A stretch of 64,000 nt of DNA, from assembly GCA_003054665.1 (NCBI GenBank), contig QAYY01000002.1, positions 372,001 to 436,000 on the forward strand, given 5' to 3'. Below are positions 33,642-47,361 of the stretch, one piece after another. Numbering within the stretch: position 1 is the stretch's first letter; the number at the start of each line of letters is the position of its first letter. The notes below the pieces were generated by a model. It did no database searches, had not been told where the DNA came from, and saw only the letters and a list, made by a program, of their open reading frames with translations. This DNA comes from Opitutaceae bacterium EW11. Its GTDB lineage: Bacteria > Verrucomicrobiota > Verrucomicrobiia > Opitutales > Opitutaceae. The translations under genes and the position numbers were made by a program.

Positions 33642-33727
33642 GTCCCTGGCACCCTTGACCCACCCCTGTCGAAGGCGCAGTTTCCGAGGCCGGAGCGGTG
33701 GGCTCAGGTTCAAGCGAAAGGGTCCGA

Positions 33728-36550
33728 ATGAACTTCGATTTTTGGCAGCGCTGGGGACTCGATCTCGACGACGTATCGTTCGCCAATGCGTGGATTGCCG
33801 TCGGTCTGGCCGACGGATTGGAGAAGGAACGTTCGGTCGACGCGCTCGGCCGCAATGTCTGGTCCGCTTCTTCCGCGACGTGGCGGTTCCCCTCCGCGCG
33901 CATACCGATTCACGGTATGCCGGCGGACTGGGCGCAGGCGTGGAAACGGCTTCCGGCGGGGATGCGTTTGCGGGTGAAAAACCCGTCGCCGGACGAGCCG
34001 CTGCGTCCGTGGTACCGGATGTTGGGCGAAGCGAATCCGGCGCCGGCCGCCGTTTCGCTCGCGATCGAAGCGCCGCGCGCGCAGCTGCAGCTGAACTGGC
34101 CGCTGCGGGTCGGCTGCCTGGCGGGCGGCTCGTGCGACGCGCTCGAAACGATCGAGCGCCAGGAACTCGGGCTCCTGCACGAGGTGACGCAGACCGTGCG
34201 GATCGACCGCGACCATGCCCGCTGCGACTTTCTCATCTATTCCGGACCGGTCCGTTCGCTCCTGCAGGAACTGCTTGGACTCTCCTGGAGCGTGAAGGCC
34301 AACGTGCTCGTGCTTTCGGGGGGAGACGAGGCGTCGTGGGGCGAGATGCAGAACCTGCTTGCGGCGGCCCTCAGCCAGACCCGCGCGAGCGGTTTTGTCC
34401 TCCTCCCCGCGAGGCTGGGCACGACGCGCGTCGCCGAGCTTTTCGGCGCGCTCGCCCGTGAACTCTCCCACGGGAAGCCGATGGACGCGGCGCTCTCTTC
34501 CTGTATTCGCGGCTCGGATGCCGCAGATACGGTGGCGGGTTTCACCGACGAACTCGCGGCTTTCGACGTCCGCCGGATCGTGATCCGGTTTCAGGCTCGG
34601 CTCTCCTCGCTTCCGCGCGGCACCGCGATCGATCTCTCGCACGTCGGGCCGGCCCAGGAATGGCTGGCCCGCGGATTGGAGGCGCGGGGGCTTCGCGGAG
34701 GAACACCGAAGAAGTCGCTCGCCGCGCCCGACGCCGATCGCCGCATACCCTCCGAAACCGTCGCGCTGCGCCCCGACGAACTGCTTTCTTCCGAGGAGAG
34801 CCAGGGCGGGGCGACACTCGCGCAGCTGGGACGCGCGCTTCCGGCCGCCCAGCCGCCGGCGCCGGCCGCGGCCGCCCGGACGGCGCGGTTCCTCCAGCAG
34901 CACTCCTTCGTGCAGCAGGGCGGAGTGATCTTTCCCGCCGCGGAAGGTTTCATCGCCGGCACGCACGCCCTGGTGCGGGTGCGCATCGGGCGGCCCGAGG
35001 AAGGGTGGAACACCAACGCCGGCGCGCCGATCGACGACAAGCTTCCCCCGACCGAGGAGGGCTGGACGCTGACGATATGGCTTTCCGAACCGAGACACAT
35101 CCCCACGCCGCTGAAGCGGAAAGTCGAACTGCCGCTCGACGGAAACAGCACGGAGTGCGAATTCCAGTTCAAGCCGAAGACTCTCGCTCAGTTCGAAGGC
35201 CAACTCACCGTGCTGCACCGCGGTCGCGTGATCCAGACGGCATCTCTCCGCGCCGCGGTCCTGAAGCCCGGCACGCACGGAGAAGTTTCCGGAGCGCCGC
35301 ATTTCGAGTCGGAAACGATCGTGCGGCATGGCTTGGGGAATCTGGACGGCCGCAGCGAATACGACCTGTCGTTCGTCGCCAGCCACGACAGCCGGGGCCG
35401 GCCCTATCTCACCGCCGTTTCGGCGAATGCCGCGTGGATGAAGGACCTTTCGCGCATTCCCGCCCTGGCTTCGGAGATCAACCGGACGCTGAGCGACGTC
35501 GCGCTCTCGGTGGAAAAGTACAAGGAGGGGCTCGACGGCAAGGAGGGGGAAAAACTGTTCGTGCAACTCGCCCAGCACGGCGGGGTGTTGAAGGCCTTTC
35601 TCCACGAGGCGCTCGACGATCCGGCGAACAATCCGGCCGCGGCCGCCGCGGAATACGTGCAGGTCGTGAGCACGCGCGCCGACACCGTGGTGCCGCTGGA
35701 ATTCGTCTACGACTACACCGTGCCCGAGGACGGGGCTAAGGTCTGCCGCCGCTGGCGCGACGCCCTCGAGGGGAAATGCCCGAAGAACTGCAAGCTCGCC
35801 TCCCAGCACCGCGTCTGCCCCCTCGGCTTCTGGGGATTGAGCAAGGTGATCGAACGCCACGCCGTCCGCCCGGGCCTGGAAAAGGACGGCAACGTGCTTT
35901 TCCTCCAGTCCGAGACGCGCGCCAACCGCGACACGCTTTATCTCGGAGGCGTCTCCGTCCTCGGCGGCAGCCAGCGCATCCCCACGGCGAGTATCAACGG
36001 ACTGAAGACGCTGATCGCCGAGCACTGCGGCGCCGAGCCGAAGGTCGCGAAGGGCTGGGACGACTGGGAGAAGATCGTGAAAAGCGTGCATCCCAGCCTG
36101 CTCGTCGCGCTGGTGCACACCGACGGATCGAAGACGAACGTGACGGTGGAAATCGACGGGAACCGGATGAAGACGGTCACGTTGCGCGACACCCACGTGT
36201 TTCCTCCGCCCCGAGAGGACGGACGCCAGGCGCCGCTCGTCGCCCTGATCGGCTGCGACACGACCGGGACGGCCGACGACTACGGGAATCACGTGCTGTT
36301 TTTCCGCGATCACGGCGCAGGCATCGTGATCGGCACGATCGCCACCGTCTTCGGGGAGCACGCCTGCAGCGTGGCGGGCAAACTCGTCGAAGGCATGCTC
36401 CCGAAAGGCGAGGCGAAGCCGGCGAGGCTCGGCGAGTTGATTCGCGCCGTCCGGCGAAACTCGCTGCGCGACGGTCTTCTCATGCCGCTGTGCCTCGTGG
36501 CCTACGGCGACGCCGACTGGATCGTTTCCTCCCAACCCACACCCCCATGA
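33728..36550 (+). CDS. large CHAT-domain (caspase-like) protein
   Basis: Protein of 940 residues. The C-terminal region (about 780-930) has the CHAT (caspase HetF-associated with Tprs) cysteine-protease layout: His797 in LLVALVHTDGS, Cys843 in VALIGCDTTGTADDYGN, then a helix, a strand (GIVIGTIATVFGEHACSVAGKLVEG) and a closing helix. Residues about 190-260 (LVLSGGDEASWGEMQNLLAAAL...GFVLLPARLG...ELSHGKPMDAALSSC) resemble the second half of a CHAT fold without the Cys, so the N-terminal part may be a second, inactive module. A beta-rich region lies at about 390-480. No TPRs were recognised. The ATG at 33728 has an AAAGGG upstream; the stop overlaps the MBL gene (ATGA). Target unknown. Confidence 0.78.
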   Translation: MNFDFWQRWGLDLDDVSFANAWIAVGLADGLEKERSVDALGRNVWSASSATWRFPSARIPIHGMPADWAQAWKRLPAGMRLRVKNPSPDEPLRPWYRMLGEANPAPAAVSLAIEAPRAQLQLNWPLRVGCLAGGSCDALETIERQELGLLHEVTQTVRIDRDHARCDFLIYSGPVRSLLQELLGLSWSVKANVLVLSGGDEASWGEMQNLLAAALSQTRASGFVLLPARLGTTRVAELFGALARELSHGKPMDAALSSCIRGSDAADTVAGFTDELAAFDVRRIVIRFQARLSSLPRGTAIDLSHVGPAQEWLARGLEARGLRGGTPKKSLAAPDADRRIPSETVALRPDELLSSEESQGGATLAQLGRALPAAQPPAPAAAARTARFLQQHSFVQQGGVIFPAAEGFIAGTHALVRVRIGRPEEGWNTNAGAPIDDKLPPTEEGWTLTIWLSEPRHIPTPLKRKVELPLDGNSTECEFQFKPKTLAQFEGQLTVLHRGRVIQTASLRAAVLKPGTHGEVSGAPHFESETIVRHGLGNLDGRSEYDLSFVASHDSRGRPYLTAVSANAAWMKDLSRIPALASEINRTLSDVALSVEKYKEGLDGKEGEKLFVQLAQHGGVLKAFLHEALDDPANNPAAAAAEYVQVVSTRADTVVPLEFVYDYTVPEDGAKVCRRWRDALEGKCPKNCKLASQHRVCPLGFWGLSKVIERHAVRPGLEKDGNVLFLQSETRANRDTLYLGGVSVLGGSQRIPTASINGLKTLIAEHCGAEPKVAKGWDDWEKIVKSVHPSLLVALVHTDGSKTNVTVEIDGNRMKTVTLRDTHVFPPPREDGRQAPLVALIGCDTTGTADDYGNHVLFFRDHGAGIVIGTIATVFGEHACSVAGKLVEGMLPKGEAKPARLGELIRAVRRNSLRDGLLMPLCLVAYGDADWIVSSQPTPP

Positions 36551-37653
36551 CCATGCCCTTCTTCAGGATCGAGATGATGCCGGCGGAGCGCGGCGACGCC
36601 CTGCTGGTGGAATACGGCGAGAACACGACGCGGCGCCTGATGATCGACGGCGGTCCGATCGAAGCCTTCCCTGCGATCGAGAAACGCCTGTCTCTGCTCC
36701 CGCTCGGGGACCAGTCGGTGGAATTGCTGGTGGTGACCCATGTCGACACCGATCACATCGAGGGGATCATCCGACTGCTCGCGCCTCCGGTGCAGCGCTG
36801 GCCGATTCGGGTCGAGCAGATCTGGTTCAACGGCTGGCGCCACATCGAGGAAGTCCGCGTGCTCGGCGGCCGGGAGGGCGAATTCATGAGCGCCCTCATT
36901 CATCGTCGACTCGACGACTGCTGGAACACCTTGTTCGACCGGAATGCGGTTCGCTGCGGCGCGGTGCCGGACGACAGCGTCACCCTCGAAGGCGGGATGA
37001 AATTCACGATGCTCTCGCCCGACGCACCGGCGCTGGCTGCCCTCGCGAAGGACTGGCGGGCGAAACTGAAGGACGGAAGCTGGAAGATGGAACCGGGCGA
37101 TCTCGACGCGGCTTGGGAGCACCTGGTCGAGGAATCGAAGTTTCATCCCGGGTCGGAGCTGACGCTGGGGCCCGAGGATCTCACCGCGCAGCTGCTGAAA
37201 CAGTTGAAGGGAATCGACAGTTCGGCGGCGAACGGAAGCAGCATCGCCTTCGTCGCGGAGTACGCCGGCAAGAGCTGCGCCTTTCTCGGCGACGCGCACA
37301 TGGACGTGGTCTGCGCTTCCCTGAAGCGGCTCGGCTGCACCAAGACCAAGCCGCTGAAACTGGATGCGGTGAAGGTCGCTCACCACGGCAGCAAGCACAA
37401 CCTCACGCAGGAGTTTCTGAGGCTCGTCGACGCGAAGAACTGGTTGTTCAGCTCGAACGGCAAGCGGTTCGACCATCCGAATCCGGAGTCGGTCGAAGCG
37501 GTGATCGAAGGTTCGATCCGCCCGCCCACGCTGTGGTTCAACTACCGCACCCCCTTCACGGAACGATGGGAGGCCGGATCGAAGGCGGCCGGCGCGCGCT
37601 ACAAGACGCGGTATCCGGCGAAGGGCAAGGAAGGCATCGTCGTCAAACTGTAG
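36547..37653 (+). CDS. ComEC-type metallo-beta-lactamase-fold hydrolase
   Basis: MBL-fold protein of 368 residues without signal peptide or membrane segments. The metal motif THVDTDHIEG (His65, Asp67, Asp69, His70) and the later VAHHGSKHN are typical of the ComEC/Rec2 metallo-beta-lactamase domain, which is associated with nuclease activity on DNA. The fold is free-standing here. It begins in ATGA overlap with the CHAT gene stop, so the two proteins are very likely co-translated and work together. Substrate is inferred as nucleic acid or nucleotide but not shown. Confidence 0.82.
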   Translation: MTMPFFRIEMMPAERGDALLVEYGENTTRRLMIDGGPIEAFPAIEKRLSLLPLGDQSVELLVVTHVDTDHIEGIIRLLAPPVQRWPIRVEQIWFNGWRHIEEVRVLGGREGEFMSALIHRRLDDCWNTLFDRNAVRCGAVPDDSVTLEGGMKFTMLSPDAPALAALAKDWRAKLKDGSWKMEPGDLDAAWEHLVEESKFHPGSELTLGPEDLTAQLLKQLKGIDSSAANGSSIAFVAEYAGKSCAFLGDAHMDVVCASLKRLGCTKTKPLKLDAVKVAHHGSKHNLTQEFLRLVDAKNWLFSSNGKRFDHPNPESVEAVIEGSIRPPTLWFNYRTPFTERWEAGSKAAGARYKTRYPAKGKEGIVVKL

Positions 37654-37720
37654 AACCGCCCGAGCCGGCGCCGCTTTCGGATTTACGGGCGGCCACCGGT
37701 CTCGCGAGAGTGGATACGTC

Positions 37721-38818
37721 ATGAAACGAATCATCCTGTGCGCGGACGGGACGTGGAACGAACCCGAGCAGGTCGACCCCGAGACGGGGCGCCGGCGCCC
37801 GACCAACGTGCTGAAAGTCGCGCGGGCCGTGCTGCCCGAGGCGGCGGATCACACCGAGCAGGTGGTGTATTACCACGTCGGCATCGGCAGCGAGAGCCAC
37901 GGCCTCGACCGCTGGACGGACGGCGCGTTCGGCAACGGCATGGAGCGGAACGTGCGCTCGCTGTACCGCTTTGTCGTCTTCAACTATTGCGAGGGCGACG
38001 AGCTTTACCTTTTCGGCTTTTCCCGGGGCGCGTTCACCGTGCGCACGCTGGCCGGCTTCATGAACGCCGTGGGGCTCCTGGAGAAGGAGGACGAGTTTTT
38101 CACCCCCGATCTCTACCGCCTCTACTCCTCCAGCGCGGCGAAGGACTCGCCGGCCTGGGAGCGCGCTTTCCGCCGCGTGCACAACCGGCGGCCTTGTCCG
38201 CCGCTCCGCTTCATCGGAGTCTGGGACACCGTGGGAGCGCTCGGCGCGCCGGGTCTTCTCGGCCAGCTGCTGAATCGCAACAAATACAAGTACCACGACA
38301 TCGGGCTGAACCCGAACATCGCGAACGCCTTCCATGCGCTCGCGATCGACGAGCAGAGGAAACCTTTCGCCCCGAGCCTGTTTGTGAGACCCGCGGGCTG
38401 GGCGGGAAATCTGGAGCAGGCCTGGTTTCCCGGATACCACTGCAACGTCGGAGGGAGCTCCGATCCCGACGGTGTCGCCAACGAGGCACTACACTGGATC
38501 GTCGAGAAGGCGGAGAAGCTCGGCCTGGAGTTCGATCGGTCCTACCTCGGTCACTACGTTCCCTGCTTCAATTCCGAGATTCACGACTCGATGAGCTTCG
38601 TCTATCGGCTGATGCGTCCCTACGTGCGGGAGATCGGCGGACACCCCGCCGACGGCGAGGAGGTTCATCAGGCGGCCCTCGATCGCATGAATCTCCCGGA
38701 ATGCGCGTACGCTCCCGCCAACCTGATCGGCCGCGCTCCGCTGCCGGTGGTGAACACGACGCGGTTTCCCCGCGGGCGGCCCTGCGCTCCGCTGCCGAAG
38801 CGGCGCCGGAAGCCGTAG
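37721..38818 (+). CDS. DUF2235 alpha/beta hydrolase (Tle1-type)
   Basis: Alpha/beta hydrolase of 365 residues with the DUF2235 start (KRIILCADGTWNEP) and conserved blocks GNGMERNVRSLYRF and LFGFSRGAFTVRTLAG. The likely triad is Ser101 (GFSRG), Asp169 (GVWDTVG) and His240 (WFPGYHCNVGG). This family includes Tle1 phospholipases of type VI secretion, but no T6SS gene is seen nearby. It has no signal peptide. It follows the MBL gene by 67 bases in the same direction and is tentatively the third member of the cassette. The basic C-terminus is PKRRRKP. Confidence 0.8.
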   Translation: MKRIILCADGTWNEPEQVDPETGRRRPTNVLKVARAVLPEAADHTEQVVYYHVGIGSESHGLDRWTDGAFGNGMERNVRSLYRFVVFNYCEGDELYLFGFSRGAFTVRTLAGFMNAVGLLEKEDEFFTPDLYRLYSSSAAKDSPAWERAFRRVHNRRPCPPLRFIGVWDTVGALGAPGLLGQLLNRNKYKYHDIGLNPNIANAFHALAIDEQRKPFAPSLFVRPAGWAGNLEQAWFPGYHCNVGGSSDPDGVANEALHWIVEKAEKLGLEFDRSYLGHYVPCFNSEIHDSMSFVYRLMRPYVREIGGHPADGEEVHQAALDRMNLPECAYAPANLIGRAPLPVVNTTRFPRGRPCAPLPKRRRKP

Positions 38819-39437: not shown

Positions 39438-39878
39438 ATGAAGAACACTCCCCAGAATCCCTGGCTTCTCGCCGCCGGCACCGGCAGCGCCCTGGTGGCG
39501 CTCCTTCACGCGGCGATCATCGCGGTGGGACCCGCGGCGTACCGCTATTTCGGCGCGGGCAATCTCGCGCCCCTCGCCGAGCAGGGCTCCTGGACGCCGG
39601 CGCTGGTCACCGCGGGATTGGTCTGCATCTTCGGGCTGTGGGCGTTGTATGCATTTTCTGGAGCGGGCTGGGTGAGGCGTTTGCCCTGGCTCAAGCCGGT
39701 TCTCTTTGTCGTCGGGGCGATCTACGCGCTGCGCGGGCTCGTCCTCTTCGCGGATCTGTATTTCGTTGTCCGAGGCGTGCATCCGGAGCCGCGCATGACG
39801 TTCTTTTCGCTGGTTTCGCTTCTCCTCGGGAGCGCATATCTCGCCGGCGCGGCGGGGGTGGACCGTTCAAAAGTCTGA
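39438..39878 (+). CDS. small integral membrane protein, about four TM segments
   Basis: Hydrophobic protein of 146 residues with four predicted membrane segments (about 10-33, 55-75, 83-105, 121-140). The N-terminus is MKNTPQNPWLLAAGTGSALVALLHAAI. I do not recognise the family with certainty. It lies 46 bases after the GNAT gene on the same strand. Confidence 0.75.
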   Translation: MKNTPQNPWLLAAGTGSALVALLHAAIIAVGPAAYRYFGAGNLAPLAEQGSWTPALVTAGLVCIFGLWALYAFSGAGWVRRLPWLKPVLFVVGAIYALRGLVLFADLYFVVRGVHPEPRMTFFSLVSLLLGSAYLAGAAGVDRSKV

Positions 39879-39980: not shown

Positions 39981-41141
39981 ATGGCACCGCTCGCAAATCC
40001 CGAGGAGGACGCACTTGTGCAATGGTACCGGGAAGAAGTTCTGGTGCACGAGGCGGCGCTCCGCGTTTATCTGAAGAAAGCCTTTCCCTCCGTTCCCGAG
40101 GTGGAGGACGTCGTGCAGGAAGCGTTGGGGCGCGTGCTGCAGGCGAAGCGCGAGGGCGACGTTCCAGCGCCGAGGGCTTTCCTCTTCGCCACGGCGCGCA
40201 ACGTGGCGGTCGACTGCCTGCACCGGCGGAACATCGCCGCGATCGGCGGTTTGGATACGCGGGGTCTGGCCGTGCTGGCCGAAGCGCGGAGCGCCCGGGA
40301 CGTCGACGCAGACGGACCTGGCCGGGAGGTCCTGATCGAGGCGATGCAGGCGCTTCCCGAGCAGAGCCGCCGGGTGCTGACGCTGCGAAAAATCTACGGG
40401 CTTTCGCAGCGTGAAGCGGCGGCGAAGCTCGGGATTTCCGAAGAAAACGTCGAAGCGCAGGTGGCCGACGGCGTGCGTCGCTGTGCCGGGTTTCTGCTCC
40501 GGAAAGGCTCGTTCGGGGCGACGCCAGCCCAGTCGAGGGATCCGATGGGCGCCTCCGCACGCGGTGGGCGCTCCGGTTCCGAGTTGGATACGGCGGCTGC
40601 GCAGTGGCTGGCGCGGCGCGACCGCGGGCTTTCGTTTTCCGAGGCGGCCGATTTTGCGGCTTGGACCAGCGCCTCGCCGGCGCACGAGGCCGCGCTTCTC
40701 CGCATCGAGCGGACCTGGGGCGCGCTGGATGCCTTGTCGGCGTTGCGGCCGCAGCTTCCGCTGGAGGCGGACCCGGAATTCCTCCGCCCGGCGCCCCAAC
40801 GTCGCTTGGCCGGTTGGTCGGCGCGGAGATGGTCGGCGGTTGCGGCCGCGTTGCTTCTCGCCCTGGCCCTGGGCGGCTGGTGGTGGGATGCGCGCCGGGT
40901 GTCGGGGACGGACCGGCGGATCGAATTTGTGGAGGCGCCGCTGGCGCAGGTCGTGAAGGAATTCAACCGCCACCACGTTCGCCAGCTCGCGCTGGCCGAC
41001 GAAGCGACGGCCCAGGTCCGCGTCGGTGGGATTTTCATCCTCGACGACGAGGAAGCGTTTCTCCGCCAGCTCGGCGAGAACTACGGCGTGGTCGCCGATC
41101 GCCACGATCCCGCCGCCACCGTCCTCCGCAAGCGGCCCTGA
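39981..41141 (+). CDS. fusion of ECF sigma factor and FecR-like anti-sigma factor
   Basis: Single open frame of 386 residues. The first part is an ECF sigma factor: region 2 at about 25-85 (VEDVVQEALGRVLQAK ... RAFLFATARNVAVDCLHRR) and region 4 at about 115-170 (LPEQSRRVLTLRKIYGLSQREAAAKLGISEENVEAQV). A linker of about 30 residues leads to a FecR-type N-terminal DUF4880 (about 203-245, AAQWLARRDRGLSFSEAADFAAW). A transmembrane helix (about 284-302) and a FecR C-terminal STN/DUF4974-like domain (about 313-382) complete it. The central FecR beta domain is missing. Normally these are two genes, so this is a rare arrangement. No TonB receptor gene is adjacent. Confidence 0.85.
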   Translation: MAPLANPEEDALVQWYREEVLVHEAALRVYLKKAFPSVPEVEDVVQEALGRVLQAKREGDVPAPRAFLFATARNVAVDCLHRRNIAAIGGLDTRGLAVLAEARSARDVDADGPGREVLIEAMQALPEQSRRVLTLRKIYGLSQREAAAKLGISEENVEAQVADGVRRCAGFLLRKGSFGATPAQSRDPMGASARGGRSGSELDTAAAQWLARRDRGLSFSEAADFAAWTSASPAHEAALLRIERTWGALDALSALRPQLPLEADPEFLRPAPQRRLAGWSARRWSAVAAALLLALALGGWWWDARRVSGTDRRIEFVEAPLAQVVKEFNRHHVRQLALADEATAQVRVGGIFILDDEEAFLRQLGENYGVVADRHDPAATVLRKRP

Positions 41142-41168: not shown

Positions 41169-44100
41169 TTACGCTTTGGAACCCCCGAGGACGAGTTCGA
41201 CGGCCGCCGGTTGCGGCGACACGGCGGTCCGGCGGCGGCCGTGGAGCAGGACATACACCGCCGGAATGATGTAGAGGGTGAGGAGGCTTCCGACGATCAG
41301 ACCGCCAATGACGCCGACGCCCATCGAGACGCGGCTCTCGGCGCCGGCGCCCAGCGCAAGCGCGACGGGAAGAATGCCGAGGATGGTCGCCAGCGTTGTC
41401 ATGAGGATCGGGCGGAGGCGGGCAGACGCGGCCTCGCGGACGGCCAGGAGCGGGTCGCCGCCGGCCGCGTGCTTTCGCTGGTTCGCGAACTCCACGATCA
41501 GGATGCCGTTTTTGGTGATCAGTCCGATCAGCATGATCAGCCCGATCTGCGAAAAGATATTCAGCGTCTGGTGACAGAACCAGAGCGCGAAGAGCGCCCC
41601 CGCCAGAGCGAGCGGAACGGTGAGCATGATCACGAATGGATCGCGGAAGCTCTCGAACTGCGCCGCCAGCACGAGGTAGATGAAGAGCATCGCGAGCACA
41701 AAAACGTAGCCGAGCGACTGGGAACTATCGACGAAGTCGCGCGCCGCGCCGGTCAGCGCCGTGGAGAAACGGTCGTCCAGCAGCCTGGCGGCGATTTGCT
41801 GCATGAGATCGATTCCCTCACCCATCGTGCGACCGCCGGCGAGCGTGGCGCTCACGGTGGCGGAAATGGTGCGATTGTATCGGTACAACTCGGGCGGGGA
41901 GCTGCTTTCCACCGCCTCGACGAGATTGTCGAGACGGACCAACTCGCCGGTCGAGGCGCGGATCGAGAGGCGGTCGAGATCGCCCGGGCGGCTGCGGAAA
42001 TCGCGCGTCAGCTGGCCGATGATCTCGTACTGCTTCCCGTTCAGGATGAAGTAGCCGAAGCGCTGTCCGCTGAGCGCCGCCTGGAGCGTTCGCGCAATGT
42101 CGTCGGCGCTGATGCCGAGCGCCTGGGCGCGGTCGCGGTTGATGTTCAGCCGCAGCTCCGGCTTGTTGAATTTCAGATCGCTGTCCACGAAGGAGAACTC
42201 GGGGCGCTTCCGCACCTCCTCCAGAAACTGCGGCAGTTTCTCCTGCAGCGATGCGAGCGTGTCGGTCTGAATGACGAACTGCACCGCTCCGCCGCCGCCG
42301 GCGCGGCGTTCGCCGATGCTCGGCTCCTGGGTGATGTTCACTCGGGCGCCGCCGAGCGAGCGCACGGCCCGCTGGATGTCCGCCGCGATCTCCTGCTGCG
42401 AACGGGAACGCCGGTCCTTGTCGGTGAGGAAAACGCGGACGAAACCGCTGTTGACCGCGCCCTGGACGCCCGGCGCACCGCCGGAGCCCGGCACCTGCGT
42501 CATCATCACCCTCGTTTCCGGGATTCGTTCGGCGGCAAGCTTCGCCACGTCGTCCATGAAGGTCGCCATGTATTCAAAACTCACGCCTTCCTGGCTGGTC
42601 GCGCGCAGCCAGATCCGCCCGCGATCCTCGAGGGGCGCGAGTTCCTTGGGCAGCGCGCCGAGCAGAAGATAGATCGAGCCGCTGGCCGCCGCGAGGACCG
42701 CGAGCGAGATCCACCGGTGGGCGAGGATGCGGCGCAGGCTGTTCGCGTACGCGCCCTCCAGCCAGACGAAAAACGGCTCCGTCTTGCGGAAAAACCACCC
42801 GTGCCCGCCGTGCGCCTTGAGAATCCGCGTGCTCAGCATCGGCGTGAGGGTGAGCGCGACAATCGCCGAGATGAGGACGGCTCCGGCGACCGTGACGCCG
42901 AACTCCCGGAAGAGTTTTCCGGAGAGTCCGCCCATGAAGAGCAGGGGAAGGAAAACGACCGCGAGCGTGATCGTGGTGGCGACGATCGCGACGAAGATCT
43001 CCTTCGTCCCCGTGATGCCTGCCTCGACCGGAGGCATCCCGTTCTCGATCTTCGCGTAGATGTTTTCCAGAACCACGATGGCGTCGTCCACCACGAGGCC
43101 GATGGCGAGCACGATGCCGAGAAGGGAGAGGATGTTGATCGAGAACCCCGCCAGCTCCATGAGGAAAAACGCCCCGACAATCGAGACGGGGATCGCGAGG
43201 ACGGGGATGAGGGTCGTGCGCCACTCGCGGAAAAAGCAGAACACGACGAGCAGGACGAGGCCGAAGGCGATCAGGACGGTCTCCTCCACCTCGCGGATGG
43301 AGCGGCGAACGTATTCGGTGTTGTCGTACGCGATATCGAGCTTCACGTCCGGCGGAAGCTCCTTGCGGATCCGTTCGAGGCGCGAACGGAGCTCGTCGAC
43401 GATCTGGATCTGGTTCGCGCCGGGCTGCTGCCGAAAGTAGAGCCCGGCGATCGGTACGTTGCCGGATTTGAGCATCGCGCGCTCGTTCTGCGCGCCCAGT
43501 TCGGCGTAACCGACGTCGCGAAACCGCACAATCCGGTCGTCCTGCCGCTTGATCACGAGATCGTTGAATTCGGCCGGCGTGTTCAGCCGGGAAAGGGTCT
43601 TCACCGAAAGCTCGATGGATTCCCCTTCGACGCGGCCGGAGGGGAGTTCGATATTCTCGCGATTCAGGGCCTGGCGAACGTCCAGCGGCCCGACGCCGTA
43701 GGCCGCGAGTTTTTCCGGATCGAGCCAGAGCCGCATCGAGTAGCGTTTCTCGGCGGGTTGATCGACGGAGGCGATGCCCTCGACCGTCTGGAGTCGCTCC
43801 TTCATCTTGTCCGCGATGGCGCAGAGCTCGAGCGGCGCTCGATCCGCGCTGCTGAGCATGAGCCCGAAGATCGGGCTGGAATCGGCATTGGCCTTGTTGA
43901 TGACCGGCGGATTCACGTCGGCCGGAAGATTGCGAATCGCTCGGGAGATTTGGTCCCGCACGTCGCTCGCAGCGGTGTTGAGGTCCGTCTCGAGCGTGAA
44001 CTCCACCACGATGGAGCTCGAACCCTCGCGACTGGTGGAGTTGAGCGTGCGGATGCCGGCGACGGAGTTGATCGCCTCCTCCAGCGGCTGCGTGATCTGC

Positions 44101-44285
44101 GCCTCGATCACCTCGGCGGCGGCGCCCGGATAGCTGGTGGTCACCGTGATCGTCGGCGGATCGACCGCCGGGTATTCGCGCACCGGCAGGCGAAAATAGC
44201 TGATCAGCCCGAAGATCGTGATGAAGAGCGACAGCACGACGGTCAGCACTGGCCTGCGGATGAAAACCTCGGCCAGGTTTTTCAT
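41169..44285 (-). CDS. RND multidrug efflux transporter (AcrB/MexB-type)
   Basis: Inner-membrane proton-driven pump of 1038 residues with the usual twelve transmembrane segments. It starts MKNLAEVFIRRPVLTVVLSLF. Characteristic blocks are GLVVDDAIVVLENI (helix 4 Asp pair), the PVSIVGAFFLMELAGFSINILSLLG region and GGLIVGSLLTLYIIPAVYVLL near the end. It is encoded with the upstream adaptor in four-base overlap. An outer-membrane TolC-type gene is not seen in this window. Substrate unknown, likely small hydrophobic compounds. Confidence 0.95.
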   Translation of the reverse strand: MKNLAEVFIRRPVLTVVLSLFITIFGLISYFRLPVREYPAVDPPTITVTTSYPGAAAEVIEAQITQPLEEAINSVAGIRTLNSTSREGSSSIVVEFTLETDLNTAASDVRDQISRAIRNLPADVNPPVINKANADSSPIFGLMLSSADRAPLELCAIADKMKERLQTVEGIASVDQPAEKRYSMRLWLDPEKLAAYGVGPLDVRQALNRENIELPSGRVEGESIELSVKTLSRLNTPAEFNDLVIKRQDDRIVRFRDVGYAELGAQNERAMLKSGNVPIAGLYFRQQPGANQIQIVDELRSRLERIRKELPPDVKLDIAYDNTEYVRRSIREVEETVLIAFGLVLLVVFCFFREWRTTLIPVLAIPVSIVGAFFLMELAGFSINILSLLGIVLAIGLVVDDAIVVLENIYAKIENGMPPVEAGITGTKEIFVAIVATTITLAVVFLPLLFMGGLSGKLFREFGVTVAGAVLISAIVALTLTPMLSTRILKAHGGHGWFFRKTEPFFVWLEGAYANSLRRILAHRWISLAVLAAASGSIYLLLGALPKELAPLEDRGRIWLRATSQEGVSFEYMATFMDDVAKLAAERIPETRVMMTQVPGSGGAPGVQGAVNSGFVRVFLTDKDRRSRSQQEIAADIQRAVRSLGGARVNITQEPSIGERRAGGGGAVQFVIQTDTLASLQEKLPQFLEEVRKRPEFSFVDSDLKFNKPELRLNINRDRAQALGISADDIARTLQAALSGQRFGYFILNGKQYEIIGQLTRDFRSRPGDLDRLSIRASTGELVRLDNLVEAVESSSPPELYRYNRTISATVSATLAGGRTMGEGIDLMQQIAARLLDDRFSTALTGAARDFVDSSQSLGYVFVLAMLFIYLVLAAQFESFRDPFVIMLTVPLALAGALFALWFCHQTLNIFSQIGLIMLIGLITKNGILIVEFANQRKHAAGGDPLLAVREAASARLRPILMTTLATILGILPVALALGAGAESRVSMGVGVIGGLIVGSLLTLYIIPAVYVLLHGRRRTAVSPQPAAVELVLGGSKA

Positions 44286-45445
44286 ATCGCGGGATTCTTC
44301 CTGTCGGGCTTGGCCCCCTCGCTTCCGGCGCGGATGGCGGCGGGCTTCGCGTTCTCGACGGTCACCTGGATCGGCAGGCCGGGCCGAAGCTGCTGGAGCG
44401 CGGACGTGATCACCTGTTCGCCGAGCGAGAGCCCGGAGAGAATGTGGATGGCCGATTCCGTTCGCGTGCCGATTTCCACGGCGCGGCGCGCGACTTTCCC
44501 GTCAGCCACGACGAAGACGTTTTTCTCGTTCAACCCGGAGACCACCGCGACGGAGGGGACCAGGATGGCGTTGTCGATCGTGGAGAGCGGGCACTCGACG
44601 CTGGCGAAGGCGCCGGGCACCAACGTGGCGCCGGGATTCGGGCAGAGAGCGCGAAGCAGGATCGTGCGGGTCGCGACGTCGACCCGCGGCTCGATCGCGT
44701 AGACCTCGCCCTGGTACCGGGTCGTGCCTCCGGCGACGGAAAACGTGATCCGCGTTCCGACGCTGATGCGGCCCGCGTAGCGCTCCGGCACGCTGAAATC
44801 GATCTTGAGGTTTTTGATCGCCTGCAGGGAAGCGATCCGGGTCGGCGCGTTCGATGTGGCGGTGATGAACGTGCCTTCGCTGATGAAGCGGAGCCCTATC
44901 ACGCCGTCGAACGGCGCGCGGATTTCCGTCTTGGCGATCTGCGCCTCGATCAGATCGATCTCCGCCTGCTGGACGTTGAAGTCGTTCAGCACGGCGTCGA
45001 AATCCTGCTGCGGCACTCCGCCCGTCTTCAACAGCGGCGCGAGACGGTCGCGCTTCAACTCGACGATCTGCTTTCGGTAGACGGCGCGCGCCAGCGAGGC
45101 CTGGAGTTCCGAGTCGTTGATCTTGAGCAGCAGGTCGCCCTTCTTCACCGCGTTACCCTCGCGGAAATTGATCGAGACGACCTTGCCGGAAACCTCCACC
45201 TGCAGATCGACCGCCTCTTCGGCCCGGATTGTACCCGTGGCGGAAATACGTTCGGCGAAGACCTGCGGCTGGATCGTGATCGCGCTGACCTGGAGGGGCG
45301 GGAGCGAGCCGGCGGGCTTTCCCGCGGACGCGACATTCTCGCGTTTTTTCCCCGGGGCGAGGCGGGGGGCGGTTCTCGACCATGCGATGGCGCCGAGCGC
45401 GACGGCGAGCACGGTCACCCAAACGACCTTGGAGCGCGGGCTCAT
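44282..45445 (-). CDS. RND efflux periplasmic adaptor (membrane fusion protein)
   Basis: Periplasmic adaptor of 387 residues with a signal/anchor at the N-terminus (VVWVTVLAVALGAIAW), a lipoyl-type half motif (GTIRAEEAVDLQVEVSGKVVSINFREGNAVKKGDLLLKIND), a coiled-coil hairpin, and the second lipoyl half (TEIRAPFDGVIGLRFISEGTFITATSNAPTRIASLQAI). Both match AcrA-type HlyD-family adaptors. It joins the pump downstream to an outer-membrane channel encoded elsewhere. It overlaps the pump gene by four bases. Confidence 0.94.
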   Translation of the reverse strand: MSPRSKVVWVTVLAVALGAIAWSRTAPRLAPGKKRENVASAGKPAGSLPPLQVSAITIQPQVFAERISATGTIRAEEAVDLQVEVSGKVVSINFREGNAVKKGDLLLKINDSELQASLARAVYRKQIVELKRDRLAPLLKTGGVPQQDFDAVLNDFNVQQAEIDLIEAQIAKTEIRAPFDGVIGLRFISEGTFITATSNAPTRIASLQAIKNLKIDFSVPERYAGRISVGTRITFSVAGGTTRYQGEVYAIEPRVDVATRTILLRALCPNPGATLVPGAFASVECPLSTIDNAILVPSVAVVSGLNEKNVFVVADGKVARRAVEIGTRTESAIHILSGLSLGEQVITSALQQLRPGLPIQVTVENAKPAAIRAGSEGAKPDRKNPAI

Positions 45446-45473: not shown

Positions 45474-46112
45474 TCAGCGGACCGACGCCAGCGAACCGGG
45501 CTCGGCGGCGGAAAAGACCGTTTGATACCGCGCGATCTGGTCCTGGATCGCCGCCAGCTCGCTCTCCGTCGGACGCGATGCGTCGGCGCAGGGCGGAAGA
45601 TTCCCGAAGCGGAGAAGGCAGTCGGCGAGCAGCTGGCGCGCCTCGGCTTCGGAGAGCGAACCGGCCTCGATGAACACGTTCTCCGGGTCGACCGGAGCCT
45701 GGCCGTTCGGAGCGACTTTTACGACGGGGACGCCCATCAGGCTGGTGCGCCGCAGAGCTTGTTCGGCTTCCGGCAGGACGCGGCCATTCCGGTTCCCAAC
45801 CGTGACGACGCCGGCGAGAGCGTGTTGGCGAAGCAGGGACGCTACCGTGAGAAGCACCTCGAATTCGCGGGCACCGTCACGGACGGGGTCGGCTGGCGAC
45901 CACGGCGTCGAGCGCAGCACGGCAATGGCCGGCAGCGCCTCGGATCGAAGCCGCCCGGAAGCGTCGCGCACCGCCACACGGACCGCACGAGTTGAGACTC
46001 CCTGCAGTCGCAGCCCGGAAACACTCGAGGGGAGTTCGCTCGCGGCGCGGGTGGCGCCAGCGGCTGCGAGGAGAATGAGAAAGCTGGCGAGACCGCGGTG
46101 GAATTTTCTCAC
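45474..46112 (-). CDS. exported protein resembling an asparaginase C-terminal domain
   Basis: Protein of 212 residues with an N-terminal signal peptide (MRKFHRGLASFLILLAAAGATRAA). The mature sequence looks like the C-terminal domain of type II L-asparaginases: LAGVVTVGNRNGRVLPEAEQALRRTSLMGVPVVKVA is the usual GNG...ALxxAxxxGVPVV run, followed by EAGSLSEAEARQLLADCLLRFG. The catalytic N-terminal domain is absent, so enzyme activity is not expected. It lies 28 bases upstream of the adaptor gene. A fragment or a substrate-binding relic are possible. The call is tentative. Confidence 0.55.
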   Translation of the reverse strand: MRKFHRGLASFLILLAAAGATRAASELPSSVSGLRLQGVSTRAVRVAVRDASGRLRSEALPAIAVLRSTPWSPADPVRDGAREFEVLLTVASLLRQHALAGVVTVGNRNGRVLPEAEQALRRTSLMGVPVVKVAPNGQAPVDPENVFIEAGSLSEAEARQLLADCLLRFGNLPPCADASRPTESELAAIQDQIARYQTVFSAAEPGSLASVR

Positions 46113-46464: not shown

Positions 46465-47187
46465 TCAGCTCGTGGGCTGTTTGTTGGCCAGGGCCGCTTC
46501 GTCGAGGGCGGCGCGCAGGAGCTCGCGGACGGCGTTGGGCTGGCGCTCGAGTTCGGCGCGGCAGATTTCGAGCACGCGGGGATGCTGCGAGGCGTTCAGC
46601 GCGAGCGAGACGCGGGCGGATTCGGCGATGCCAGGTGTCTTCGAGCCCACCGCCGTCAGTATCTGCTGGATGTGCCGTGCGTCGCCGGTGGCGAGGAAGG
46701 CGCCCCAGTGGAGATTCATCGATGCCGGCGAAAGCACGGGGGAATCGGCGAGGAGCGTCCGATTAGCGGATACAACCTCTTCGAGGCGCTTCGCGTCGAT
46801 TCCGGGAGCTTGGCGCAGGTACGCCTCGGCACGGGGCGAACCGGCGACCCAGGCGGCGGCGGCGAGGAGCCGGCGATGGGCGGAGGGAAGCCCGCGGAAG
46901 TCGCTGAACCACGCGTCGAGCTTGTCCGGATTCCGGGCGAACACGGCGGCGAAGAAGCCGATGGACTGCGCCGGTTGGCCCTCCTGCTCGAAGAAGCCCA
47001 TCCGGCTGAGAACGTACACGCGTTTCACCAGCAGCTCCGGCTGCGGTTGCGCGTAGTAGTTGTCCATCCAGGAGAGGGTTCGGTATTCGGAGTCGCTCTC
47101 GATCGCGACGAGTGGAGGAAGCGCGTGGCTGCTTTGGGCGGCCGCGACGAAGAGCGCGGCACAGACGAGGAAGGGAGTGGGTTTCAT
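46465..47187 (-). CDS. exported hypothetical protein
   Basis: Protein of 240 residues with a signal peptide (MKPTPFLVCAALFVAAAQSSHA). The mature part is alpha-helical and rich in Ala, Leu and Arg, with repeating helix pairs (SAHRRLLAAAAWVAGSPRAEAYLRQAPG; ESARVSLALNASQHPRVLEICRAELERQP). TPR- or HEAT-like folding is possible. No catalytic motif is seen. Codon 1 was placed at the ATG that begins the signal peptide. A terminator follows, so it is probably transcribed alone. Confidence 0.78.
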   Translation of the reverse strand: MKPTPFLVCAALFVAAAQSSHALPPLVAIESDSEYRTLSWMDNYYAQPQPELLVKRVYVLSRMGFFEQEGQPAQSIGFFAAVFARNPDKLDAWFSDFRGLPSAHRRLLAAAAWVAGSPRAEAYLRQAPGIDAKRLEEVVSANRTLLADSPVLSPASMNLHWGAFLATGDARHIQQILTAVGSKTPGIAESARVSLALNASQHPRVLEICRAELERQPNAVRELLRAALDEAALANKQPTS

Positions 47188-47361
47188 GAAGAACACAGGT
47201 TGGGTTCCGCGGGGTCGCAAGGGGGGTCGACGTGGCGGAACGACTAGAACGATGGAGCCGCGCCCTCACCTGTAAAGGCCCGCACCGTTGAGTAATTTTC
47301 CATCGATGCATTCCATTCATGGATACGCGAAATTCCGCTACAGGCTGGGCGTTTTTGAGCA

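Follow-up and report, generated by a model that had tools for sequence, protein, structure and literature searches.

Can a FecI-type ECF sigma factor and a FecR-type regulator work as one polypeptide when the regulator has lost its periplasmic core and no receptor gene lies nearby? One gene of the window (the whole 64-kb stretch of DNA analysed here) raises this question. The answer we favour, with a probability of roughly 0.45, is that fusion of such a pair has produced a receptor-less, membrane-tethered sigma factor that is freed by RseP-type proteolysis. The gene is a single 386-codon ORF at 39981..41141 (+) in the ORF listing of the window, and, as the original prediction stated, sigma, DUF4880, transmembrane and STN parts follow one another in one frame. 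Its features are given below.

39981..40508 (+): ECF sigma-70 domain, residues 1-176 (Pfam, relatives' alignment, model)
40017..40019 (+): alternative start GTG (codon 13) behind GAGGAGGA (40002-40009) (Shine-Dalgarno pairing)
40443..40448 (+): codons 155-156 (E-N) in the region 4.2 helix, where relatives have H in 17/21 and T in 21/21 (A4 column counts)
40509..40589 (+): fusion linker, residues 177-203, in the position of the relatives' sigma stop and short spacer (alignment, pLDDT)
40535..40547 (+): GAGGG (40535-40539) and in-frame ATG 40545 (codon 189), at the relatives' FecR start region (alignment, pairing)
40590..40820 (+): cytosolic anti-sigma domain (ASD, DUF4880), residues 204-280 (PF16220)
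40809..40874 (+): predicted transmembrane helix, residues 277-298 (low-confidence model, hydropathy)
40875..40916 (+): juxtamembrane segment of 14 residues (299-312), in place of the ~150-residue FecR core (CJM) (relatives' spacing)
40917..41138 (+): periplasmic STN domain, residues 313-386 (alignment, AlphaFold model, Foldseek)

The domain assignments rest on several kinds of comparison. Pfam placed Sigma70_r2 at residues 26-83 (E 4.8e-6) and Sigma70_r4_2 at residues 116-168 (E 2.2e-13), and the protein scored above the cut-off of the ECF sigma model TIGR02937 (59.2 bits vs 42.9), while staying below those of two narrow FecI-specific models, NF007232 (42 bits vs 185) and NF041727 (34.9 bits vs 260). 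DUF4880 (PF16220) was matched over residues 205-244 (E 1.3e-5), barely above its cut-off (25.4 bits vs 25), and the ASD retains W209, D214 and W228, each present in 21/21 relatives in alignment A4. Pfam gave no match to the FecR core (PF04773) within the ORF and reported none to the STN/DUF4974 model; the STN part was assigned by alignment to relatives, including A4 and a stretch of ~80 residues with 46-47% identity to genome G006, and by the AlphaFold model. Since sigma+FecR pairs are matched across the whole ORF (E 3.7e-61 and 7.4e-63), a chance origin is excluded. PADLOC returned no match for the fusion protein.

The AlphaFold model, built from 22 sequences, reached a mean pLDDT of 82.7 and a pTM of 0.48. 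Sigma was mostly above 90, with a poor linker at residues 89-111, the ASD lay at 80-97 over residues 201-270, and the STN had block means of 86-95 over residues 311-386; the fusion linker (45-58) and the transmembrane helix (block means 55-63) were of low confidence. Thus, the three domains are predicted confidently, and the linkers so poorly that the predicted packing of the domains carries no weight. The membrane tethering previously proposed agrees with the predicted helix at residues 277-298; the hydropathy peak lies at 283-304. By Foldseek, all three matches under E 0.001 were ECF sigma factors, and the STN part retrieved PupR (6ovk_R, E 0.007), the FecR-like 4m0n (E 0.026, 2.1 A over 76 columns) and the FecA signalling domain 1zzv (E 0.18), each with a probability of 1.00. 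In the PDB, the A4 profile, which includes the relatives' core, reached E-values of 3e-22 or lower with PupR 6ovk and FecR-like 4m0n/4m0h. When the STN was folded by itself, without alignment, the model was poor (pLDDT 49.6).

To describe how the pair is normally built, we used the best 80 of 337 matches to alignment A1, chosen by similarity and corresponding to 78 loci; a scan of the named genomes' contigs with the single protein as query returned zero relatives, and the A1 query found them. Both genes are visible in 76 of the 78 (two show sigma only), and within this best-80-of-337 set a stop splits sigma from FecR in 76/76, the two genes sharing a frame with one stop between them in 26/76 and lying in different frames in 50/76. 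The core length was measurable in 64 of the 76 and not in the other 12; in this set, 64/64 carry 134-189 extra residues between ASD and STN (median 150), which bears out the earlier statement that the FecR core is missing here. A second set, overlapping the first, consisted of 48 of 66 loci after removal of 6 duplicates and 12 loci without a sigma or ASD match, and the window was the sole fused locus of the 48 counted; among the 47 relatives with both matches, 28 had a stop between two genes that share a frame, and in 19 the frames differed. With so many relatives having a single stop between two genes of one frame, loss of that stop suffices to fuse them. In the relatives the sigma gene ends in ...RRCADFLARHGLP-stop, followed by a spacer of a few codons and the FecR start, and in the fusion gene the frame reads through ...RRCAGFLLRKGSFGATPAQSRDPM... 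at the junction, with the ATG of codon 189 at the relatives' FecR start. The former FecR start therefore survives as in-frame ATG 40545.

The neighbourhood differs as well. A large downstream ORF (>450 aa) is present in 59/60 relatives with at least 2.5 kb of flank, and in 10 of these ORFs that were scanned we found STN in 8, Plug in 7 and either in 9; the normal context in the relatives is sigma-FecR-STN transducer. Compared with these Opitutaceae FecI/FecR-type pairs, whose sigma, DUF4880, transmembrane and STN parts are homologous to those of the fusion protein, the fusion no longer has the stop or the core, and lacks the transducer gene. The gene that follows belongs to a convergent RND efflux pump (ACR_tran, E 8.9e-300) with a HlyD-type partner at 41169-45445 (-). 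As the original prediction held, no receptor is near: the 64-kb window contains no TonB barrel and the nearest on the contig lies 29.6 kb from the fusion gene, the genome having 37 barrel matches, 36 of them above the cut-off.

A search of 252 family genomes with the FecR-like part (27 with a match, E 1e-14) did not find a core-less FecR, a search which weak ones could escape. Three gap-bridging matches taken as candidates (G123, G188 and G140, the last identical to L043) are full FecRs. The complete architecture is seen in one genome only, for which the searches gave no close relative, and the fused, core-less form is rare, not unreal.

Proteases that the favoured reading calls upon are encoded in the genome, namely an RseP-type M50 protein with two PDZ stretches at C8:118887 and five S41 matches. 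The ORF adjoining the RseP-type gene we take, by eye, to be dxr-like.

Beyond the domain anatomy, we infer the following course. The FecI-type sigma and the FecR-type regulator would have been joined by loss of the sigma stop where the two genes shared a frame, and the core would have been removed by an in-frame deletion, after or together with loss of the receptor gene. Sigma and DUF4880 would form an intramolecular complex in the cytosol, held by one transmembrane anchor with a small STN outside, and, with neither core nor dedicated transducer, the usual siderophore/TonB input would be gone. The STN would serve as a folded cap that denies RseP, a site-2 protease with two PDZ domains, access to the transmembrane segment; a periplasmic protease would trim this cap, and RseP would then cut and free a soluble sigma with its anti-sigma/pro-sigma domain still attached. 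Output would be low and constitutive, or would follow protease activity (envelope state) rather than a substrate, and a leaky, protease-set sigma with its own DUF4880 domain would be expected. The core-less regulator may also be cut more readily, since no partner would protect it in the way the FoxA signalling domain shields FoxR from proteolysis in the available excerpts of PMC11637429. A stable STN cap is doubtful, given the poor model of the STN alone and the instability of the isolated PupR STN described in the excerpted text of PMC7186176. We also considered a remnant of FoxR-type Gly-Thr self-cleavage, for MAFFT aligned RVSGT of the window with RAVGT; this was rejected because the juxtamembrane segment scored against the core columns no better than its own shuffles, 143, 91, 106 and 107 of 300 shuffles being as good at lengths 5-8.

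The closest precedent is IutY of Pseudomonas putida (group ECF243), the sigma/anti-sigma hybrid of the aerobactin system (PMC5411451, PMC8999054 and PMC9249621, in excerpt), a single chain of comparable length (374 aa) that likewise comprises a sigma domain, one transmembrane segment and a periplasmic part of FecR type. According to the available portion of PMC5411451, IutY is retained at the membrane until Prc and RseP release it, and this direct precedent lends support, by analogy, to the proteolytic release suggested earlier. Its truncated forms are described there as active without signal and RseP-dependent, and as Prc-dependent once the periplasmic part exceeds ~50 residues, compared with ~88 residues in the fusion protein. 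IutY differs in having the whole CJM+STN, where the fusion protein has STN only, and in adjoining the gene of its receptor IutA, where the fusion gene has no adjacent receptor. In the same excerpts its sigma domain spans residues 8-164 and a ~50-residue periplasmic part ends at 236, so IutY appears to lack the space for the cytosolic DUF4880 domain that the fusion protein has; this comparison is drawn from published coordinates. The excerpts of PMC8144685 add that an RseP-made N-terminal fragment of FecR works with FecI as a 'pro-sigma', and that the RseP PDZ tandem has been proposed as a size filter. Groups ECF48, ECF52 and ECF53, as described in part of PMC8999054, resemble the fusion protein in being membrane-tethered ECF sigma factors with proteolytic release expected, but they are actinobacterial and carry a fused zinc-binding anti-sigma with a transmembrane segment, of unrelated fold; the likeness is one of description. 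The view that FecI and FecR are separate proteins thus holds for the relatives in the best 80 of 337 matches (76/76) and not in general, hybrids such as IutY being already known. Fusion by itself is not new; the core-less, receptor-free variant of the IutY/FecI-FecR kind is, and in the titles and abstract openings of the open-access literature searched, no CJM-less sigma/FecR fusion was described.

The strongest rival, and a genuine possibility, is that the gene is a reduced relic of a pair that decayed after receptor loss, losing stop and core, and has no regulated membrane signalling; that its frame is still open would reflect only a recent decay, or a weak residual use of one part, e.g. sigma. 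The sigma end branch is indeed long (1.32 vs a median of 0.28, the longest after L021; 0.76 and 0.32 for L002 and L003, other sigmas of the same genome), part of this length reflecting sampling, as the genus is represented by one genome in the comparison set. Sigma retains 25/33 of the sites conserved in >=90%, the lowest of 45, its lost near-invariant residues including R128Q, C129S and T156N; the STN retains 7/10 such sites (third lowest), and for the ASD, counted at the 80% level, the rank is ninth lowest. The locus is, furthermore, an orphan without a transducer. Against much neutral drift stand the 386 codons free of stops and frameshifts, the retained ASD tryptophans and STN core, and the codon-position G+C, whose contrast is present in sigma (0.78/0.44/0.78) and STN (0.81/0.36/0.85), weaker in the ASD (0.74/0.64/0.83) and abnormal in the linker (0.63/0.74/0.78). 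In a simple mutation model without indels, 0.09-0.18 neutral substitutions per site leave a 5% chance of an open 386-codon frame. From conserved to variable columns, identity to the relatives falls from 28/39 to 5/18 in sigma and from 6/7 to 4/13 in the STN, and in the ASD it is 9/10 in the top class and uneven below (8/18, 9/14, 3/16, 4/11). The open frame and the preferential retention of conserved sites disfavour a long neutral decay; open frame, retained residues and G+C signal would be seen, too, if function had been lost very recently.

Other junction fusions bear on the same alternative. We counted as such a match that begins before residue 170 and passes residue 210 without a stop. Among the matches listed, one search gave the window and G006:C24, two gave the window alone, and a further search, with its own query numbering, gave G006:C24 and G058:C1. 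The first of these (L185, 226547-227176) encodes 210 aa of sigma4-DUF4880-TM and ends after the transmembrane segment, no sigma2 and no periplasmic domain being found in it; in the 252 family genomes, no match listed spans this protein without a stop, except in G058. At G058:C1 (L213, ~681600-683100), sigma2 lies in one frame and sigma4-ASD-TM in another. The ORF after this transmembrane segment, named by eye, is presumably IS630-type transposase-like. The notion that homologues are always split thus stands for 76/76 relatives and 47/48 loci, and fails at these two loci: loss of the sigma stop recurs in the family, but in clearly reduced loci, which raises the odds of the relic. Together with the fast sigma branch and the lost near-invariant residues, these reduced fusions also count against the receptor-less, protease-freed sigma factor, as does the result of the promoter search upstream of the gene (0 promoter-like sites found vs 0.1 expected).

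Further fusion candidates were inspected and set aside. Sigma and FecR are split in different frames at G266, G093, G112 and G108 (borderline) and, among loci with long sigma frames, at L187, L188, L190 and L191, which have a FecR match in the same stretch, and at L192, judged by its STN; L186 and L189 show no FecR-part match in the same stretch.

An improbable addition is that initiation at ATG 40545 yields a second, free ASD-TM-STN protein of 198 residues, sigma and anti-sigma thus being made in some ratio. The site lies at the FecR start region, with GAGGG 5 nt upstream and a pairing energy of -11.0 kcal/mol, between the best 5% (-11.6) and the best 10% (-10.3) of 185 ATGs, but this is an argument from sequence, the Shine-Dalgarno could be a leftover, and sigma can no longer be produced alone, so that the tether would stay. 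For the gene's own start, GTG 40017 pairs better than ATG 39981 (-11.8 vs -7.2 kcal/mol). All pairing energies refer to an assumed anti-Shine-Dalgarno sequence.

The family-specific model A2 detected three STN transducers in the genome, and cross-talk, with the STN docking in trans on one of them, is a very unlikely way for the TonB signal to be kept. Available excerpts report that, in two-hybrid assays, the FoxA signalling domain is bound by the STN of FoxR by itself (256-328) and not by 192-255 (PMC11637429), and residues G350 and F352 of the docking-strand region, each 19/21 in relatives, are retained. However, each of the three transducers lies 501-578 bp from a FecR-core match and, because each adjoins its own full FecR, none is spare; PupR, moreover, is described in part of PMC7186176 as requiring both CJM and STN for receptor contact in vitro. 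The earlier idea that the core contacts the TonB receptor is hence upheld by PupR only in so far as both subdomains are needed, and contradicted by FoxR; the fusion protein shares the C-terminal STN fold of the PupR/FoxR periplasmic region (6ovk; excerpts of the same two papers), lacks the CJM, and has kept the docking subdomain. A weak fourth PF07660 match lies at C2:279930 (E 0.002). The genome has five PF04773 matches, none within the fusion ORF, and two of them (C27:447554-447904 and C45:234702-235031) lie outside the three canonical triplets.

Finally, a sequencing or assembly artefact is scarcely credible: the complete architecture is in no other genome searched and a wrong base at the lost stop is possible, but the only forward-frame stops within 40200-41141 are, by frame, 40333, 40378, 40954 / 40412 / 41139, with none in any forward frame across 40415-40953, so a single indel cannot produce the fusion and the sequencing indel raised earlier as a possible refutation is excluded, the core must have been removed in frame by another, independent event, and the genome is 99.99% complete with 0.32% contamination, on a contig of 589,815 bases.

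Should the membrane-tethered, protease-freed sigma factor be right, a more specific form of it, which we consider rather unlikely, is a minimal receptor-free sigma-plus-pro-sigma gated by the STN, with membrane protease access as input in place of the siderophore receptor, and with H155E and T156N hinting at a new regulon; judged from their place in the region 4.2 helix, these two changes may alter promoter choice. The locus amounts to a natural deletion experiment, in a debated pathway, on whether an STN alone docks a transducer (FoxR yes, PupR no, in the excerpts cited above). It also bears on whether ~88 periplasmic residues are few enough for the RseP size filter, and on whether covalent linkage of sigma to the ASD leaves the molecule active or inhibits it. 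If it functions, the gene would indicate that a receptor-coupled regulator can turn into a one-protein, receptor-free regulator; if a relic, it would document the decay of such loci in a family rich in them.

Some observations were made alongside. One Acidobacteria-labelled contig (L160, VFZP01000271.1) carries an Opitutaceae-like sigma/FecR locus and, by record titles, shares a lake series with a Verrucomicrobia MAG (L155, VHCY01000035.1); it is possibly misbinned. Near the fusion gene, the ORFs 39438-39878, 45477-46112 and 46468-47220 had no Pfam match at E 0.01. At 33698-38815 (+) stands a row of three genes, a possible defence or conflict cassette. One product, of 950 aa, has neither a Pfam nor a PADLOC match and is CHAT-like by eye; another has a metallo-beta-lactamase fold and matches LmuA (E 6.2e-65) and Avs1a in PADLOC, and the remaining one is a Tle1-like phospholipase (PF09994, E 9.9e-77).
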